Origin: Rhodobiaceae bacterium
GTDB lineage: Bacteria; Pseudomonadota; Alphaproteobacteria; Parvibaculales; Parvibaculaceae
Assembly: GCA_003330885.1 (NCBI GenBank)
Contig: CP030277.1
Location: 2,778,001 to 2,842,000, forward strand
Direction of reading: 5' to 3'
Length of the DNA: 64,000 nucleotides
The notes under the pieces were generated by a model that was given only the letters and a program-made list of their open reading frames with translations, had not been told where the DNA came from and did not search any database. This document shows, piece after piece, positions 3,315 through 59,929 of this stretch. The position numbers and the translations under genes were made by a program. Position 1 is the stretch's first letter. Every line of letters begins with the position of its first letter.

Positions 3315-4524
3315 TCCGATTACAAGACGCTTCTCAAGAGAAGCCGCGGATCCAACCGATCGCGCAGAAAATGTCGGGCGTCTGCAACTTATCCTCGTTG
3401 TCTCATTCTTCTTGTTTGCGGTTGCGGTATCAAGCCTGCTGTCTGGAACAGACCGCACGCCTACGCTCAAAGATGAAGAAGAGTTCGCCCCACTGGTGAA
3501 TTCGACGATCGTCAATCCCGAAACACAGCGAATTGAAATTGTTGGCAGCGGAGCAGTCAGCAGCCAGGTCGACGTTCAAATAATCCCACAGGTACAGGGC
3601 AGGGTGGATTGGTTGAGCGCAGTCATGCGTCCAGGCGGCTCATTTCTAAAAGACGAAGTCCTGTTCCGCATCGAAGCCCGCGACTTCGAACTGGAGGTCG
3701 AGCGTCGACGCGCGGAGGTGGCGAGCGCCAGAACCAATTTGCAGCTGGAAGAAGCGGAGGGCCTCGCCGCTACAAGGGAATGGGAAGAAATCACCCCAGG
3801 TGAGCCGGTCCCAGATCTTGTCGCACGCAAACCACAGATCCGAGACAGGCGCGCGGCACTCGCCTCCGCCCAGGCTCAGCTTGCCCGTGCACAACTCGAC
3901 CTGGACCGAACGAATTTCTCATTACCCTTCAACGGGAGAGTTGTCTCCAGCAATGTCGAGCTGGGCCAATTTATGGCCACCGGCCAGTCCTACGGGTCCG
4001 TCTATTCGCTGGACGGGCTTGAGGTCACGGTGCCCCTGGCGGACAAAGACCTGAAATGGCTTCAACCGCTCGACAATGTTGAGGCGATCATCCAGACATC
4101 TTACCTCGGTGTGGATCGGGTGATCCGGGCAAGAGCTGCACGCGTATCTGCACAACTGGATGCTCAGACACGATTTGCCTCGGTAATTGTATCCCTAGGC
4201 GAAAACGCTGGCACCAAAGACACGCTACCTCTCGTCCCTGGCGTTTTTGTCTCCGTGACATTTTTTGGGCCAGAGCTCGACAATTTGGTCACGGTGCCCA
4301 CAGCCGCTGTTCAGGAAAACGGGAAGATATGGACAGTCGTCGATCAACGATTGAAATCTGCCCAACCTGAGATTGTCCAAACCGGCCCCACAACCTCGCT
4401 AATCAGAGGACTGACTGCGGGCACAGAAATATTGCTGAGCAACCTTCCCGGTGCCGTTGAAAACATGGCGGTGCGTACCGTCGTAGCAACATCATCGACA
4501 ATCAACACAGTCGAGGCACGATAA
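3298..4524 (+). CDS. RND efflux periplasmic adaptor (HlyD/MFP family)
   Basis: Membrane-fusion protein joining the inner-membrane pump to the outer-membrane channel. The start at 3298 is chosen because AGGAAAG lies at good spacing and the residues that follow form a basic N-terminus and one transmembrane anchor (ILVVSFFLFAVAVSSLLS). The lipoyl-like half-motif (VQIIPQVQGRVDWLSAV), a coiled-coil hairpin (about residues 110-200, rich in E/R/A and containing FSLPFNGRVVSSNVELGQ) and beta-barrel strands are visible. Of about 408 residues, it is the usual size. The next gene begins one base after its stop. Confidence 0.92.
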   Translation: MKRILDPITRRFSREAADPTDRAENVGRLQLILVVSFFLFAVAVSSLLSGTDRTPTLKDEEEFAPLVNSTIVNPETQRIEIVGSGAVSSQVDVQIIPQVQGRVDWLSAVMRPGGSFLKDEVLFRIEARDFELEVERRRAEVASARTNLQLEEAEGLAATREWEEITPGEPVPDLVARKPQIRDRRAALASAQAQLARAQLDLDRTNFSLPFNGRVVSSNVELGQFMATGQSYGSVYSLDGLEVTVPLADKDLKWLQPLDNVEAIIQTSYLGVDRVIRARAARVSAQLDAQTRFASVIVSLGENAGTKDTLPLVPGVFVSVTFFGPELDNLVTVPTAAVQENGKIWTVVDQRLKSAQPEIVQTGPTTSLIRGLTAGTEILLSNLPGAVENMAVRTVVATSSTINTVEAR

Positions 4525-51400: not shown

Positions 51401-52153
51401 ATGCAGAGCGAAGAACATACGCCGCTGCGCCGCGCGCGCGCCTGGGCCATCCACCTCTTTACAGCTTCCGGGGTCATCCCGGGTCTGCTGGCAATAGAAG
51501 CAACCTTTGCCGGTGACGGACGCATGGCGCTCCTTTGGCTGGGCCTCGCACTTATCATCGACGGACTGGACGGCCCGCTAGCACGGCGCTTTGAAGTGAC
51601 ACGCTACACGCCAAGGTTTGACGGTGCCATTCTCGACCTGGTGATTGATTATCTCACCTACACAGCCATCCCAGCCCTGATGATCTGGCAGCTAGACATG
51701 GTGCCCGACGGATGGGGCCTTGCCGCCGCCAGCTTTGTGATGCTGACGGCCCTTTATTGCTTCGGCAATCGGGACATGAAGACAAACGATAACTATTTCG
51801 AAGGTTTTCCCGCGACCTGGAACCTGGTTGTGCTCTGCTTCTTCCTTTTGGATAGCGGACCGATGACCAATATTGTCGTAATCGCTTTTCTTGGTGCCCT
51901 GACATTCACCCGCCTGAAGTTCATTCATCCCTTTCGGGTTGTGCGACTGCGCCTGATCACAATCTTCATGACTGCCACCTGGGGTCTCAGCAGCACCTGG
52001 CTTCTGATCGCAAAGAACGACGCGCCACTCTTGGACAGCGAGCCTGCAGCCTTTGCCGCCTGGCTCTTTTCATCTCTCTACTTTGTGGGCTTTGGCATCG
52101 TCCGGTCGTTCCAACAGAACATTGAAAGCGCAAAGCCTCCGGCAGGCAACTAA
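51401..52153 (+). CDS. pcs: Phosphatidylcholine synthase (CDP-diacylglycerol-choline phosphatidyltransferase)
   Basis: 250-residue membrane enzyme that makes phosphatidylcholine directly from choline and CDP-diacylglycerol. The Pcs-specific catalytic stretch is IDGLDGPLARRFEV followed by PRFDGAILDLVIDYLTYTAI, with D57, G58, A61, R62, G75, D79 and D83. The later CFGNRDMKTNDNYFEGFPAT is also typical of Pcs. About eight membrane helices can be seen. Its stop overlaps the convergent DUF5666 gene stop. Phosphatidylcholine by this route is a feature of many alphaproteobacteria and some gammaproteobacteria. Confidence 0.92.
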   Translation: MQSEEHTPLRRARAWAIHLFTASGVIPGLLAIEATFAGDGRMALLWLGLALIIDGLDGPLARRFEVTRYTPRFDGAILDLVIDYLTYTAIPALMIWQLDMVPDGWGLAAASFVMLTALYCFGNRDMKTNDNYFEGFPATWNLVVLCFFLLDSGPMTNIVVIAFLGALTFTRLKFIHPFRVVRLRLITIFMTATWGLSSTWLLIAKNDAPLLDSEPAAFAAWLFSSLYFVGFGIVRSFQQNIESAKPPAGN

Positions 52154-53775
52154 GGGGCCGGCGCTACACGCACTGCTGCCGGCAGTTGCGCAGGCAAAAC
52201 GCCCCGGTCTGTAAGAAGGTCTCTAAGCCGTGCGCGCGTTGCAAGCGGCAAAGATTTGGGATCGAACCCTTCATGCTTGACTGCATGCCGCAGTCTCAGC
52301 AGGCCAACAACTGCCGCCAACTCATGACGAGCACCGATAAATTGAGCAGGATCAACACCAGCCTCCTGCAGCCGCATTTTGATCGCCTGCAGCTGAGGCA
52401 TCTGCGCGGAGTCAAACTCGCCCTCTTCGATCAACTCTCCGATAGCCTCATGGCGCTCAAGGAAGAGGCCGAAACGCTCCGGGTCAAATCTCTGAATGCC
52501 GTTGGCGGTGCCATCAGCACCACCCATTTCCATGAGCACAGAGAGCTGATCGGCAGTAAGAGGCCGGGCAGCGTTAAGGAAACCGGTGGGCAGTCCCTTC
52601 GCTGCGACAAGCGCCCTTACCTGTTCGATATTAGGCAAAGTGGTCGGGTCAATCGTTAGCGGATCACGGCCTCTGGCTTCCATCTGACCTCGTAGCAGAT
52701 CAGGGATATCACCTGCTTGAAAACTTTCCCCGTCCAACGCCCAAGGCAGATTGCGCAGAAGGCCCGGGATCTGAATACGTGGCTGCGGGCTGATGGACAT
52801 GTCATCTGAGAGCCAGCGCCCTCTAAAGAGGGCTGCAGGCAACCCTTCACCAGAGAAACGCGGAGCCAGTCCTTCCGGCAGCGTCCAGTTATGACCCGCA
52901 ACATAGTTGAGTCCGGAGGCGTTCGATGCCACGAACCCCTGAACCAACAGATCCGACATACGCCCGCCAAAAGGATCTTTCGGCGCTTTGACAAAATCAG
53001 TGACTTCGAAAGCGCGCGCCCGGAAAACCCCACGAAGCAGAATCTCATCACCTATGTTGATGGTGCGCCCATTGATAAGCGGACGGTCGAACTGCAAGCC
53101 ACCGAGCGCCAACCCTTCCCCGTCGGCTGGCAGGGCTACACCGCGAACAAATGCGCCACGCGACGCTGGTACAGGATCAATACGGGTTGCAACGACCTGC
53201 TCATCCGGCCCCCTCAATCCACTCACCCTCACCCATTCGTCTAGGAGTGGCAGACGATCAGTCTCTGCCACCTGGATGATCTGACCGAGCACAGTGATGG
53301 TGCGAGCAGTCTCGTCAACGTCACTAACCGGCCCCATGGCAGCGTGTTGAACTTCAACCAGCTTGGCTTGATACCGCTCTCCCATAGGGCGGGCTTCAAC
53401 GGCAACAACTTGGCCAATTGCAAAATCGGCTGGCGTCCCAGCAACACCATCTACAACAACCGGGGTCTCATCTTCATAGTCAATATGCACGCCGTTAACG
53501 ACAATGCTGCCAAAGGCTGTGATGACGCCAAAGATACCAGTACCACCGACACCTTCGTCGCCACCGCTTGCTTGCGCAACGTCTGAGACAAACCCAGTCC
53601 CACCGACACCTTCGTCACGATCACGGTCACGCCCATCAACATCGGTAAAACCTGTGCCACCAACACCCGCGTCCGGCGCTGAGGTACCGGAGGGCGCCAT
53701 GGCAACGGGCCCGAGCCCTGCGCATCCAGAGAGGACACTGGCAACAAGAAGGAAAGTGAGAACACGGATTTTCAT
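52150..53775 (-). CDS. DUF5666-containing lipoprotein with GVGGTG repeats
   Basis: 541 residues. The lipobox is ASVLSGC (C18). GVGGTG occurs three times at a 19-residue period (37-42, 56-61, 75-80). It is followed by DUF5666-type beta-strand modules, first IFGVITAFGSIVVNGVHIDY and several OB-like repeats (RTITVLGQIIQVAETD; LALGGLQFDRPLINGRTINI). The C-terminal ~200 residues are helical. Role unknown. The start codon overlaps the DUF6502 stop as ATGA, so they are expressed together; DUF5666 and DUF6502 proteins commonly occur as neighbours. Confidence 0.85.
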   Translation of the reverse strand: MKIRVLTFLLVASVLSGCAGLGPVAMAPSGTSAPDAGVGGTGFTDVDGRDRDRDEGVGGTGFVSDVAQASGGDEGVGGTGIFGVITAFGSIVVNGVHIDYEDETPVVVDGVAGTPADFAIGQVVAVEARPMGERYQAKLVEVQHAAMGPVSDVDETARTITVLGQIIQVAETDRLPLLDEWVRVSGLRGPDEQVVATRIDPVPASRGAFVRGVALPADGEGLALGGLQFDRPLINGRTINIGDEILLRGVFRARAFEVTDFVKAPKDPFGGRMSDLLVQGFVASNASGLNYVAGHNWTLPEGLAPRFSGEGLPAALFRGRWLSDDMSISPQPRIQIPGLLRNLPWALDGESFQAGDIPDLLRGQMEARGRDPLTIDPTTLPNIEQVRALVAAKGLPTGFLNAARPLTADQLSVLMEMGGADGTANGIQRFDPERFGLFLERHEAIGELIEEGEFDSAQMPQLQAIKMRLQEAGVDPAQFIGARHELAAVVGLLRLRHAVKHEGFDPKSLPLATRARLRDLLTDRGVLPAQLPAAVRVAPAP

Positions 53776-54620
53776 CAGCCCTCTCCTTCCTTGTTTTCAG
53801 GCTCATCTTGTTCAGCGTGGAAGTAGACACCAAACGTCATCCGATGACGGCCATCACCACGCGCACGGTCTTCTGTGGCAAGCTCTAGTGCGTGCTTGTT
53901 CGCTTCACGAACGGCTTCAGCACCAAGCTCCTGCGCAAGCAGGCGCAGCTTCTCGATTGAGGCATCGGTAAGCCCCCAATAGAACGTCGCCCGGTCAATA
54001 AAGCGTGGGTCCTGTCCTTCGAGATTATGCAGACCAGCTGATATATGGTCGCGAAGGTTCCGGCCAAAAAAGTGAAGGGCTTCCACCTCGGCTTCTGGCG
54101 TTGCGAACGCTTCGGTATTGAGCTCGACAAAACCATCATCCCTTCGCAAGACCACATTGAGCCGTAGCCAGTCATCCAACACAGCTCGAGACCGCACATC
54201 CTGGCTCACCTCACCCACAAGCTCCTCGAAGCTGGGAGAGCCGTCGGACCGTTTTTCAAACAAGGGAAGCGGGCTGCCATCTTCCTGGGCGAAGGGCGCG
54301 CGTCCCATCCAGATCCCGATCAGCTTTGACCCCATTGACGCAGCACTCGGCGGGCGAGGCGCATCACTAGGGCTTTCTAAGAGACGCTTCACATCCTTGC
54401 GGTGAACGCCGCTCATCACACTGATGGCACTTTGGGTCACGCGTCCGGTCTTCGCAGCCTCCAATCGCGCTGCGTCGACATAAAGCGCCTTCAGTTCTTC
54501 AACAACCTGGGGGAGTTGGACGCCCCGGCGAACCAAACCGCGGACGAGCGGCCGCAATATGGTGCGCACAGCTCCGATAAGCGGCCCTGTTGGCCCTTCT
54601 TTTTCCAGGATTTCCCCCAT
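53775..54620 (-). CDS. DUF6502-family protein (helix-turn-helix-like N-terminus)
   Basis: 281 residues. The N-terminal ~90 residues look like a DNA-binding fold (RPLVRGLVRRGVQLPQVVEE; VTQSAISVMSGVHRKDVKRL). The C-terminal part is a conserved domain with LHFFGRNLRDHISAGLHNLE. The function is not known. Two copies of a GTGGG-N7-CCCAC palindrome lie just upstream and could be its own operator. It is first in a two-gene operon with the DUF5666 lipoprotein. Confidence 0.85.
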   Translation of the reverse strand: MGEILEKEGPTGPLIGAVRTILRPLVRGLVRRGVQLPQVVEELKALYVDAARLEAAKTGRVTQSAISVMSGVHRKDVKRLLESPSDAPRPPSAASMGSKLIGIWMGRAPFAQEDGSPLPLFEKRSDGSPSFEELVGEVSQDVRSRAVLDDWLRLNVVLRRDDGFVELNTEAFATPEAEVEALHFFGRNLRDHISAGLHNLEGQDPRFIDRATFYWGLTDASIEKLRLLAQELGAEAVREANKHALELATEDRARGDGRHRMTFGVYFHAEQDEPENKEGEG

Positions 54621-54643: not shown

Positions 54644-54660
54644 GTGGGAAAACTACCCAC
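54644..54660. promoter_or_regulatory. Operator-like palindrome, copy 1 (GTGGG-N7-CCCAC)
   Basis: GTGGG-AAAACTA-CCCAC, 24 bases upstream of the DUF6502 start, spaced 29 bases (centre to centre) from the second copy. Confidence 0.6.
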
Positions 54661-54672
54661 ATTTTTGTTGAC

Positions 54673-54689
54673 GTGGGATTATTTCCCAC
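54673..54689. promoter_or_regulatory. Operator-like palindrome, copy 2 (GTGGG-N7-CCCAC)
   Basis: GTGGG-ATTATTT-CCCAC; same half-sites and spacer length as copy 1 with a different spacer sequence, which argues for protein recognition of the half-sites rather than duplication. The palindrome symmetry in this copy extends by one base (GTGGGA/TCCCAC). Confidence 0.6.
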
Positions 54690-54700
54690 ATAAGTTGATC

Positions 54701-54855
54701 GTGTTGCTGACGGTGTTAGCAACACCTGGTGAGCACTAGGCCCCTGTCGGCACAGTTTCCTTCTGGCCGGTCAGCATCCTCACCCCTTGGGTCTATGTTT
54801 TATTAGGTTGGGCTGGAGGAGTCGCAAGCACCTCCGGCCCACTACTTTTTCCACT
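54701..54855 (+). ncRNA. Possible small RNA or leader with two hairpins (tentative)
   Basis: The gap between the DUF6502 and GST genes holds a perfect 8-bp hairpin (GTGTTGCT / AGCAACAC, 54701-54725). It also holds a strong terminator-like hairpin (GGGCTGGAGG / CCTCCGGCCC, about 54810-54842) followed by ACTACTTTTT on the + strand. No + strand gene ends here, so the terminator-like end could belong to a short untranslated RNA. The second hairpin could instead serve the minus-strand GST gene. Confidence 0.25.
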
Positions 54856-58204: not shown

Positions 58205-58259
58205 GCGTTTCCAAGAAAAGTGGCCAGGTCTGACTTGGCGGTTTTCTGTCCGGAAACGC
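58205..58259. repeat. REP-like palindromic repeat, copy 3
   Basis: GCGTTTCC ... GGAAACGC, 55 bases, with inner AGAAAAGTGGCCA / TTGGCGGTTTTCT arms as in copy 1. It lies between the rpmA terminator and the first acetyltransferase. Confidence 0.82.
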
Positions 58260-58285
58260 GAAAAAAGAATTTGGGAGGGACTACC

Positions 58286-58837
58286 ATGATTGCCGAAACA
58301 CTAAGTCTTGCAGGCGAAAAACTGACGCTGCGTCCTTTCACATTGGACGACGCACCACGCGTACAGGAACTCGTCAGCAACTGGAATGTGGCGTCAATGG
58401 TAGCGCGCATTCCCCATCCCTACCCCGAAGGAGCTGCAGAAGAATGGATCGCCGGTCACAATGAACGCCGGGCGGCTGGTGACAGCTGGCCTTTTGCCAT
58501 TGAGACAAAAAAGGCCGGGCTTGTGGGCACAATCGGTGTCGGCACGACCGAGAGCGGCTCTATGGAGATCGGCTACTGGATAGGGGAACCCTATTGGGGC
58601 AAAGGCATCGCCTCAGAGGCTACACGGGTCTTAGTTGAGTTTGCCTTCGACATTTTGGGCACCGCTCGTCTCGAAGCTGAATACTTTAAGGACAATCCAG
58701 CTTCGGGGCGCATCCTGACCAAAGTGGGCTTCAAGGAAACCGGTGAGGAGAAACGCTTCTGTCTCGCCAGAGGAGAAGAGCTAGACTGTATCGCCCTGGA
58801 GCTGACGGCCCCAGAGCATGAGAAGGCAAAGCGATGA
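58286..58837 (+). CDS. GNAT-family N-acetyltransferase (RimJ/RimL-like), paralog 1
   Basis: 183 residues; GGGAGGGA precedes the ATG at 58286. The acetyl-CoA site is in IGEPYWGKGIASEATRVLVE, and LEAEYFKDNPASGRILTKVG is the following conserved helix. It shares the substrate-side stretch VARIPHPYPEGAAEEWI with its two neighbours. In the family such enzymes acetylate ribosomal protein N-termini or small amines; the target here is unknown. The three genes lie between rpmA and obgE, a position often occupied by GNATs in alphaproteobacteria. Confidence 0.92.
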   Translation: MIAETLSLAGEKLTLRPFTLDDAPRVQELVSNWNVASMVARIPHPYPEGAAEEWIAGHNERRAAGDSWPFAIETKKAGLVGTIGVGTTESGSMEIGYWIGEPYWGKGIASEATRVLVEFAFDILGTARLEAEYFKDNPASGRILTKVGFKETGEEKRFCLARGEELDCIALELTAPEHEKAKR

Positions 58838-59349
58838 CCACGATCCTGACTACAGACCGCTTGCGCCTGCGCACCTTTGAGCCAGAGGACGCAGCTCTCG
58901 TAACCGACTATGTGGGCGACTGGGATGTCTGTTCCAAACTCACCCGAGTGCCTTATCCCTATACACGGGAGATGGCTGATCAGTGGATCGCAAGTCACGA
59001 TGCCTCCCCTGACATCATCTGTGCAATCGAGGTAGACGGCGCGCTCGCTGGGTGTATCGCGCAGGAGCAAGAATTCGGCTATTGGCTGGGCAAACCATTT
59101 TGGGGCAAAGGCGTCATGACCGAAGCGTCCCGCGCTTTCGTCTCCTATCTCTTTGAGGCAGAACACATGCATGACCTCGGCGCGTCCTTCTTCAAAGACA
59201 ATCCCGCGTCAGGCGTGGTGTTGGAACGCACTGGTTTCAAAGTGACCGGCGAAAGCAGAGCTTTCTGTCTGGCGCGCGACACAGAGGTTGAGCGCTATGA
59301 CGTCACAACAAACCGTCATGTCTGGGAAGACCTGAAAGAAAGCTGGTAG
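58834..59349 (+). CDS. GNAT-family N-acetyltransferase, paralog 2
   Basis: 171 residues, starting in an ATGA overlap with paralog 1. Acetyl-CoA motif region WLGKPFWGKGVMTEASRAFV, then LGASFFKDNPASGVVLERTG; N-terminal LTRVPYPYTREMADQWIASH matches the shared stretch of the family. Likely a product of local duplication. Confidence 0.9.
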   Translation: MTTILTTDRLRLRTFEPEDAALVTDYVGDWDVCSKLTRVPYPYTREMADQWIASHDASPDIICAIEVDGALAGCIAQEQEFGYWLGKPFWGKGVMTEASRAFVSYLFEAEHMHDLGASFFKDNPASGVVLERTGFKVTGESRAFCLARDTEVERYDVTTNRHVWEDLKESW

Positions 59350-59353
59350 GGAG

Positions 59354-59929
59354 ATGAAACGCGTCTTCACATTGCCTGCAGGGGGAGAACCCGTTCTGAC
59401 AACAGAACGGCTGACACTCCGTGCATTCAGACTGGAAGATGCAAACACCGTCTGTCACCTAGCTGGCGAATGGGAAGTGGCACGCATGATGGCACCTGTG
59501 CCCTACCCCTATCCGCTTTCATTTGCTGAAACTTGGATCGCAGGCCATCGTAAAGGCGCCGCTGAAGGCACTGACCTGACCTTCGCGATCTGGCAGGGCG
59601 ACAGGCTGATCGGTTCCATCAACATAGAAAACCGAGGAGATGACATCACGGGCATCGGCTATTGGATCGGCAAAGAATACTGGCGCAGGGGCTATGCAAG
59701 CGAAGCCGTCGCTGCAATCCTCAGCTATGCGTTCGGCGAGCTCGGCATTAACCTTCTTCTCACAGACCTCTTCGCTGACAATGTCGCATCTGCGCGAGTT
59801 CTGGAGAAGGCGGGCTTTACTTTTTCCCTTGAAAAGTCCGGATGGAGCGAAGCTCGACAGGAAACATGTCTTAAACGTGAGTATCGCTTGACCCCAGCGC
59901 GCTGGCAGGCTCAAAAGGGGCTACTATGA
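59354..59929 (+). CDS. GNAT-family N-acetyltransferase, paralog 3
   Basis: 191 residues. Acetyl-CoA region [20 protein letters not shown], then [20 protein letters not shown]; shared stretch [20 protein letters not shown]. It starts four bases after paralog 2 and overlaps the obgE start (ATGA), so it is tied to the housekeeping operon. Confidence 0.9.

Follow-up and report, generated by a model that had tools for sequence, protein, structure and literature searches.

The DUF6502-DUF5666 locus

The window, i.e. the whole stretch of 64,000 nucleotides analysed here, contains a two-gene operon on the minus strand that is preceded by two palindromes. Its first gene encodes a DUF6502 protein, the next one an exported DUF5666 protein, and both genes overlap by one base. 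The features are as follows:

53775..54620, minus strand: DUF6502 gene, 281 aa, proposed autoregulator (PF20112, E 2.4e-24)
54375..54434, minus strand: codons of the predicted helix-turn-helix, residues 63-82, with the recognition region SGVHRKDVKRLL
54111..54341, minus strand: codons of the second, winged-helix-like domain, residues 94-170 (predicted structure)
52150..53775, minus strand: gene of the DUF5666 protein, 541 aa, exported partner with lipobox LSGC at codons 53722-53733 (PF18914, E 4.3e-09)
53650..53667, minus strand: GVGGTG peptide copy 1 in the DUF5666 gene, after the lipobox
53593..53610, minus strand: GVGGTG peptide copy 2 in the DUF5666 gene
53536..53553, minus strand: GVGGTG peptide copy 3 in the DUF5666 gene, adjoining the first DUF5666 core
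54644..54660, no strand: operator 1, GTGGG-N7-CCCAC, gene-proximal, half-sites GTGGGA and GTGGGT
54673..54689, no strand: operator 2, GTGGGA-N5-TCCCAC, gene-distal
54668..54696, plus strand: divergent promoter-like element TTGACG-N17-TAAGTT, read by eye, with operator 2 as its 17-bp spacer

The original prediction had named both protein families and a doubled GTGGG-N7-CCCAC motif in front of their operon, and it was correct on both points. The DUF6502 protein reaches 86.1 bits against the PF20112 profile (cut-off 27) over residues 15-272 and belongs to this family. A pattern search of the window identified the palindromes GTGGGAAAACTACCCAC (54644-54660) and GTGGGATTATTTCCCAC (54673-54689), both exact and 29 bases apart from start to start. 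When one mismatch is allowed, the window contains four matches compared to 2.24 expected, and four were reached in 14 of 100 shuffles, so that one-mismatch counts on their own are unremarkable. In the entire genome of 3,862,255 bases, the exact motif occurs in only four places: the two operators, one site within a tRNA-Ser gene and one within an open frame. The reversed control pattern is found in 7 places of the same genome, which means that the motif is not common genome-wide. The oddity of the locus is the presence of two exact copies 29 bases apart before one gene. Both palindromes are kept in the close relatives (L005-L007) and in most of nine aligned sequences from the same order. In the close relatives, the stretch between them reads GTCAAYAAAAAT or similar. 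A chance palindrome was rejected based on the genome count, an inverted-repeat scan and the family-wide upstream counts given below. 

Operator 2 is adjoined by an inverted repeat, GTGTTGCT...AGCAACAC (54702-54726), which is partly conserved in relatives. Elsewhere in the window (58220-59929), three consecutive frames that appear GNAT-like by eye, i.e. acetyltransferase-like, are located just before an Obg-like GTPase gene.

Predicted structure of DUF6502

Two AlphaFold models of DUF6502 (mean pLDDT 69.1 and 70.4, pTM 0.38 and 0.39) agree in a four-helix N-terminal domain with a helix-turn-helix (HTH), a winged-helix-like middle domain, a helical C-terminal part and two final strands. The predicted HTH comprises helices 63-70 and 74-82, and the mean pLDDT of this stretch is about 85-90. 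Among 14 relatives, 18 positions are invariant including SxMxGVHRKD of the HTH. For the N-terminus, which had been described as HTH-like and for which a structure comparison had been proposed, a DNA-binding fold of the HTH type is predicted. The low overall confidence of the models (mean pLDDT 69-70, pTM below 0.4) counts against an autoregulator, and so does the lack of a sequence match between DUF6502 and solved DNA-binding proteins. The original prediction noted that such a role was not known to be established for this family. No mention of DUF6502 or PF20112 was found in the literature searched; DUF5666 is named in it.

Putative operators upstream of DUF6502 genes

DUF6502 was sought in five overlapping genome samples. 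In the lineage of the window, 15 of 385 genomes sampled at class level, 21 of 398 at phylum level and 9 of 40 at order level contained it; in the lineage of genome G605, it was found in 99 of 369 at class level and 47 of 120 at family level. From 200 ORFs, 198 had an N-terminus and upstream DNA, and 180 were left after dereplication at 85%. The 400 bases before the family match were scanned. GGGA-N5-TCCC, which corresponds to sites of 17 bp, is present in 53 and GGGA-N6-TCCC (18 bp) in 47 of these 180 upstream regions. Each of the remaining spacings between 0 and 20 occurs in at most four regions. 

The exact GGGA-N5/6-TCCC core was detected in 99 of the 180 regions, in none of 180 coding controls and in 4 of 175 regions 700-1100 bp further upstream; shuffles yield about 1. 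When a TGTG half-site variant is added as third class and the two GGGA classes are allowed one mismatch, 120 of 180 genes have a site (coding controls 0/180, shuffles 0.95 expected, further upstream 3 of 175). An unbiased inverted-repeat scan peaked likewise at gap 5, with 76 of 180 regions versus 23.7. The other 60 genes lack a recognisable site at one mismatch, and this counts against autoregulation. A scan for the motif upstream of other DUF6502-DUF5666 operons had been proposed as a check. Judged from this distribution, the motif goes with the DUF6502 gene throughout the Proteobacteria.

Among exact half-sites, GTGGGA (36 sites) and ATGGGA (7) are the most frequent; GTGTGA, ATGTGC and GAGGGA are rarer. 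The paralogues of G605 differ in their half-sites (TTGGGA, RTGGGA and TTGGGT). At GGGA-N5 sites, the recognition helix of the adjacent protein carries His in 51 cases, one residue was unread, and one Thr protein has both spacings. At GGGA-N6 sites, it carries Thr, Ser, Asn or Tyr in 46 of 46 cases. A rule by which this residue sets the spacing was rejected: The pattern largely tracks two clades, and 17-bp TGTG sites occur beside clade-B proteins whose residue is Thr or Asn (L049, L101, L112, L113). The pairing is kept as an apparent association at the level of clades. No residue was found that explains GGG versus TGTG half-sites.

The exported partner and its GTG peptide

A DUF5666-like ORF is visible at 112 of 180 DUF6502 loci. 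106 such ORFs are located downstream on the same strand, mostly directly downstream. In one family sample, in which the draws for DUF6502 and DUF5666 show the same handles, DUF5666 is present in 36 of 47 genomes with DUF6502 versus 8 of 73 without it (Fisher 3e-13). 

The linked DUF5666 proteins share a short glycine-threonine-glycine (GTG) peptide with a consensus of about G-[I/V/L]-G-G-[T/S]-G-I. In the segment that connects the signal sequence to the first DUF5666 core, GTG is found in 119 of 130 linked versus 2 of 19 unlinked proteins, and one of these two (L293) is an internal stretch. GTG or GSG is present in this segment in 125 of 130 linked proteins. The Fisher test of linked versus unlinked proteins left out 13 unknown rows, none of which has GTG, as well as rows in which no signal was seen, namely 9 linked ones, all with GTG, and 3 unlinked ones, none with it; for a lipobox-based comparison, only proteins with a confident lipobox were taken. 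The mean copy number of the peptide is 2.61 beside His-type and 1.08 beside Thr/Ser/Asn/Tyr-type regulators. 

The peptide is not confined to DUF5666. GTG occurs in 16 of 31 downstream signal-bearing non-DUF5666 ORFs, spurious frames included, compared to 10 of 311 other signal-bearing ORFs from the same loci. Ten non-DUF5666 partners were scanned: Four contain domains (DUF4382, fn3/Calx-beta, chitobiase-C/fn3-associated, CarboxypepD-like), and six match no family. Since partners of unrelated families carry GTG, the common element is the short peptide and not a fold. At L178, many GISVGD repeats replace GIGGTG in the non-DUF5666 ORF downstream of DUF6502, perhaps as a variant peptide. The gene divergent from DUF6502 (e.g. 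at L008, L020, L037, L112, L171 and L194) often encodes a varied secreted protein or lipoprotein, mostly without GTG. At L092, L095 and L108, which are among the beta-type loci, it resembles by eye a CPBP-type membrane protease.

The shared peptide may be a signal for a DUF6502 switch. The chances are about even that it has instead a purely structural, sorting or cell-surface role and that linked DUF5666 proteins are just one subfamily. In many cases, a GTG copy lies right next to the first DUF5666 core, glycine-rich lipoproteins are common, and no route is known here that would bring an exported peptide back to the cytoplasm. However, GTG is largely missing in the unlinked DUF5666 proteins, also in those from the same genomes, and is carried by exported partners as unrelated as DUF4382, fn3/Calx-beta, CarboxypepD-like and no-family proteins. 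Should the peptide be the ligand, it would be part of a widespread peptide- or secretion-sensing switch without mention under DUF6502 in the literature searched. One short peptide ties the DUF6502 regulator to DUF5666 and other exported proteins.

Promoter geometry and proposed autoregulation

In the 18-bp class, the spacer bases together with the next T can be read as a -10 box: T (67%), A (65%), T (51%), A (57%), T (48%), then T. At 25 of 41 sites, at least four of six positions agree with TATAAT. A TTGACA-like -35 box (at least five of six) is located 16-17 bp from this in-operator -10 box in 19 of 41 cases, and at any other distance in at most two. In this class, the operator wraps the putative -10 box of the promoter in front of DUF6502. 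In 24 of 41 cases, 6-8 bases separate this box from the first in-frame ATG, which suggests that these DUF6502 messages are leaderless.

In the 17-bp class, a divergent -35 box begins 5 or 6 bases ahead of the site in 14 of 52 cases, so that the operator fills the 17-bp spacer between -35 and -10. The divergent element TTGACG-N17-TAAGTT in the window has the same arrangement as this class in relatives. Its -10 box is weak (three of six), and no divergent coding gene follows it in the window. A generic promoter scan of the region detected neither this element nor a promoter directed towards the operon, and the unplaced gene-ward promoter counts against autoregulation.

Features observed in the sequence form the basis for autoregulation: the motif is family-wide, it is concentrated at DUF6502 promoters, it overlaps promoter elements, and the operon includes a GTG-bearing exported partner. 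DUF6502 is very probably an unrecognised DNA-binding autoregulator, probably a dimeric repressor that acts by promoter occlusion. A DNA-binding autoregulator was what the original prediction had proposed, and the comparison across the family (exact core at 99, any site class at 120 of 180 genes) together with the predicted HTH supports it. Not part of that proposal were the arrangement at the promoters, the two spacings and the peptide of the partner. A DUF6502 dimer would probably bind the palindrome via its N-terminal HTH. As the palindromes are situated inside promoters, bound DUF6502 would most likely block RNA polymerase and thereby repress its own operon and, where present, the divergent gene. 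Polymerase occlusion is the most likely mechanism as far as this arrangement can tell. In the window, the two operators would constitute a doubled switch ahead of the DUF6502-DUF5666 operon. From these data, we infer direct binding by DUF6502, its dimeric state and repression over activation; the partner peptide or pre-protein would be its putative ligand.

It is unlikely that DUF6502 acts at these sites as an activator, or as a dual regulator like HetR, and is switched off by the peptide of its partner. HetR, which has been described as activating genes (PMC4192349), is first in one of two Foldseek searches (see below), and some 17-bp sites are located 100-160 bp upstream of the gene, a position where an activator could act. 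By contrast, the -10 box lies within the operator in the 18-bp class, and the spacer of a divergent promoter is taken up by many of the 17-bp sites, which favours repression at those promoters.

Sites distant from DUF6502 bear on the question of who binds the palindrome. RTGGGA-N5-TCCCAY was searched in 49 genomes with DUF6502, where the alpha genomes had been chosen for having DUF6502 and most beta and gamma genomes because the motif had already been seen there. 45 of the 70 sites found are, by coordinates, immediately upstream of a DUF6502 gene. The 50 genomes searched that lack DUF6502 have 12 sites, spread over 8 genomes. Good sites distant from DUF6502 in a few genomes (G327, G1152, G247) count against the autoregulator and mean that either a small regulon or another binder exists. 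We regard it as quite improbable that the palindrome belongs to an unlinked, different transcription factor with DUF6502 as just one of its targets. Sites at some other genes and in 8 of the 50 genomes without DUF6502 would fit such a factor. Yet the number of sites is 1 to 4 in most genomes, with DUF6502 as their main location, half-sites differ among paralogues of one genome, and the DUF6502 gene itself encodes a predicted HTH. 

Distant sites were inspected in 17 of 20 regions, with L247-L249 left out. A large regulon was rejected: L234, L231, L237 and L238 are plausible targets, the others are coding or chance, and no common function is apparent. In L234 (G327), the site at 4037 precedes an open frame with glycine/aspartate-rich repeats; in L237 (G247 contig 38), a doubled site (3930 and 3971) precedes another open frame. 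From G1152, L231 has an operator-like site before or beside a lipoprotein gene, and L230 has one distant from DUF6502. L234, L237, L231 and L230 are possible further targets.

That the palindromes are RNA hairpins or terminators and not protein operators is highly improbable: two terminator-like elements were called in the window region, one of them operator 1 followed by T's on the plus strand, but the half-site sequence is fixed with only two spacings among 180 genes, the sites coincide in part with -35 and -10 boxes, and the 18-bp sites are at or before the probable transcription start.

An autoregulatory role would be the first function for DUF6502, a family that 99 of the 369 genomes sampled from one class contain, and its DNA site is defined and easily tested.

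Comparison with known regulators

HTH autorepressors of the LacI, TetR and MarR types have a palindromic operator that overlaps core promoter elements of their own gene and often of a divergent one. DUF6502 is similar in that its palindrome overlaps the core promoter of its own and often of the divergent gene and that an HTH is predicted. Unlike them, it belongs to none of these families (Pfam, NCBIfam search), and it has two fixed spacing classes in one family, one of which encloses the -10 box. A weak NCBIfam match in the HTH (E 0.04, well short of the curated cut-off) is PRK09834, "DNA-binding transcriptional regulator", which we take to be IclR-type. IclR domains are among the structural neighbours of DUF6502 residues 92-172; the domain order and the C-terminal part of DUF6502 are unlike IclR.

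Another parallel is HetR. HetR binds the 17-bp site GAGGGGTCTAACCCCTC at hetP, which reads GNGGG-N7-CCCNC, and reportedly requires GGG-N5-CCC (PMC4192349). Its inhibitors PatS, PatX and HetN all contain RG(S/T)GR (PMC7761841). Its fold has been termed unique, with the hood domain as the part to which PatS binds (PMC7476756). DUF6502 proteins are likewise about 280-300 aa long and have, in the predicted models, the same domain order of N-terminal HTH, second domain and C-terminal part. Further similarities are palindromic GGG...CCC sites, of 17 bp as at hetP (PMC4192349), autoregulation, which is proposed for DUF6502, and a partner with a G[TS]G-core peptide, to which RG(S/T)GR corresponds on the HetR side (PMC7761841). 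The differences are that DUF6502 sites are GGG-N7-CCC or GGG-N8-CCC and not GGG-N5-CCC (PMC4192349), that the partner peptide GxGG(T/S)G has no flanking arginines, that the partners are long exported proteins or lipoproteins, and that DUF6502 is found in Proteobacteria whereas HetR is the heterocyst regulator of cyanobacteria.

The models were compared with HetR, whose fold consists of HTH, flap and hood. In Foldseek, model 1 retrieved HetR at ranks 1-6, full length but weak (E 0.035-0.45), and model 2 only at rank 24 (E 1.4). With VIA, an aligner used for a second look, HetR reached Z 6.5 with both models (rmsd 6-9 over 154-179 residues), a value that is common; with model 2, HetR was tied at the top, spanning two domains. 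Homology was also sought by sequence, and phmmer, hmmsearch, hhalign and hmmscan gave nothing usable: Five DUF6502 proteins did not match the HetR profiles PF03574 and PF18460 at E 10, and hhalign gave a probability of 0.3% with a HetR profile built from two near-identical sequences. Two tblastn matches of HetR in plasmids (E 8-9) were taken as chance, and neither HetR nor DUF6502 had a match in viral contigs. The kinship suggested by the models is a lead, not a result, and DUF6502 was not filed as HetR.

It is conceivable, if rather doubtful, that Proteobacteria have in DUF6502 and its partners a counterpart to HetR and PatS/PatX, in which DUF6502 represses its own operon and G-x-G-G-[T/S]-G at the start of the exported partner is the ligand. 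The peptide, either processed or within a pre-protein awaiting export, would bind the C-terminal part of DUF6502 and alter DNA binding. Such a switch would detect whether its own product is being secreted, or else a peptide that cells share. With the peptide as ligand, DUF6502 would possibly be a relative of a regulator whose fold has been called unique (PMC7476756), and if the counterpart holds true, HetR would not be an isolated cyanobacterial invention.
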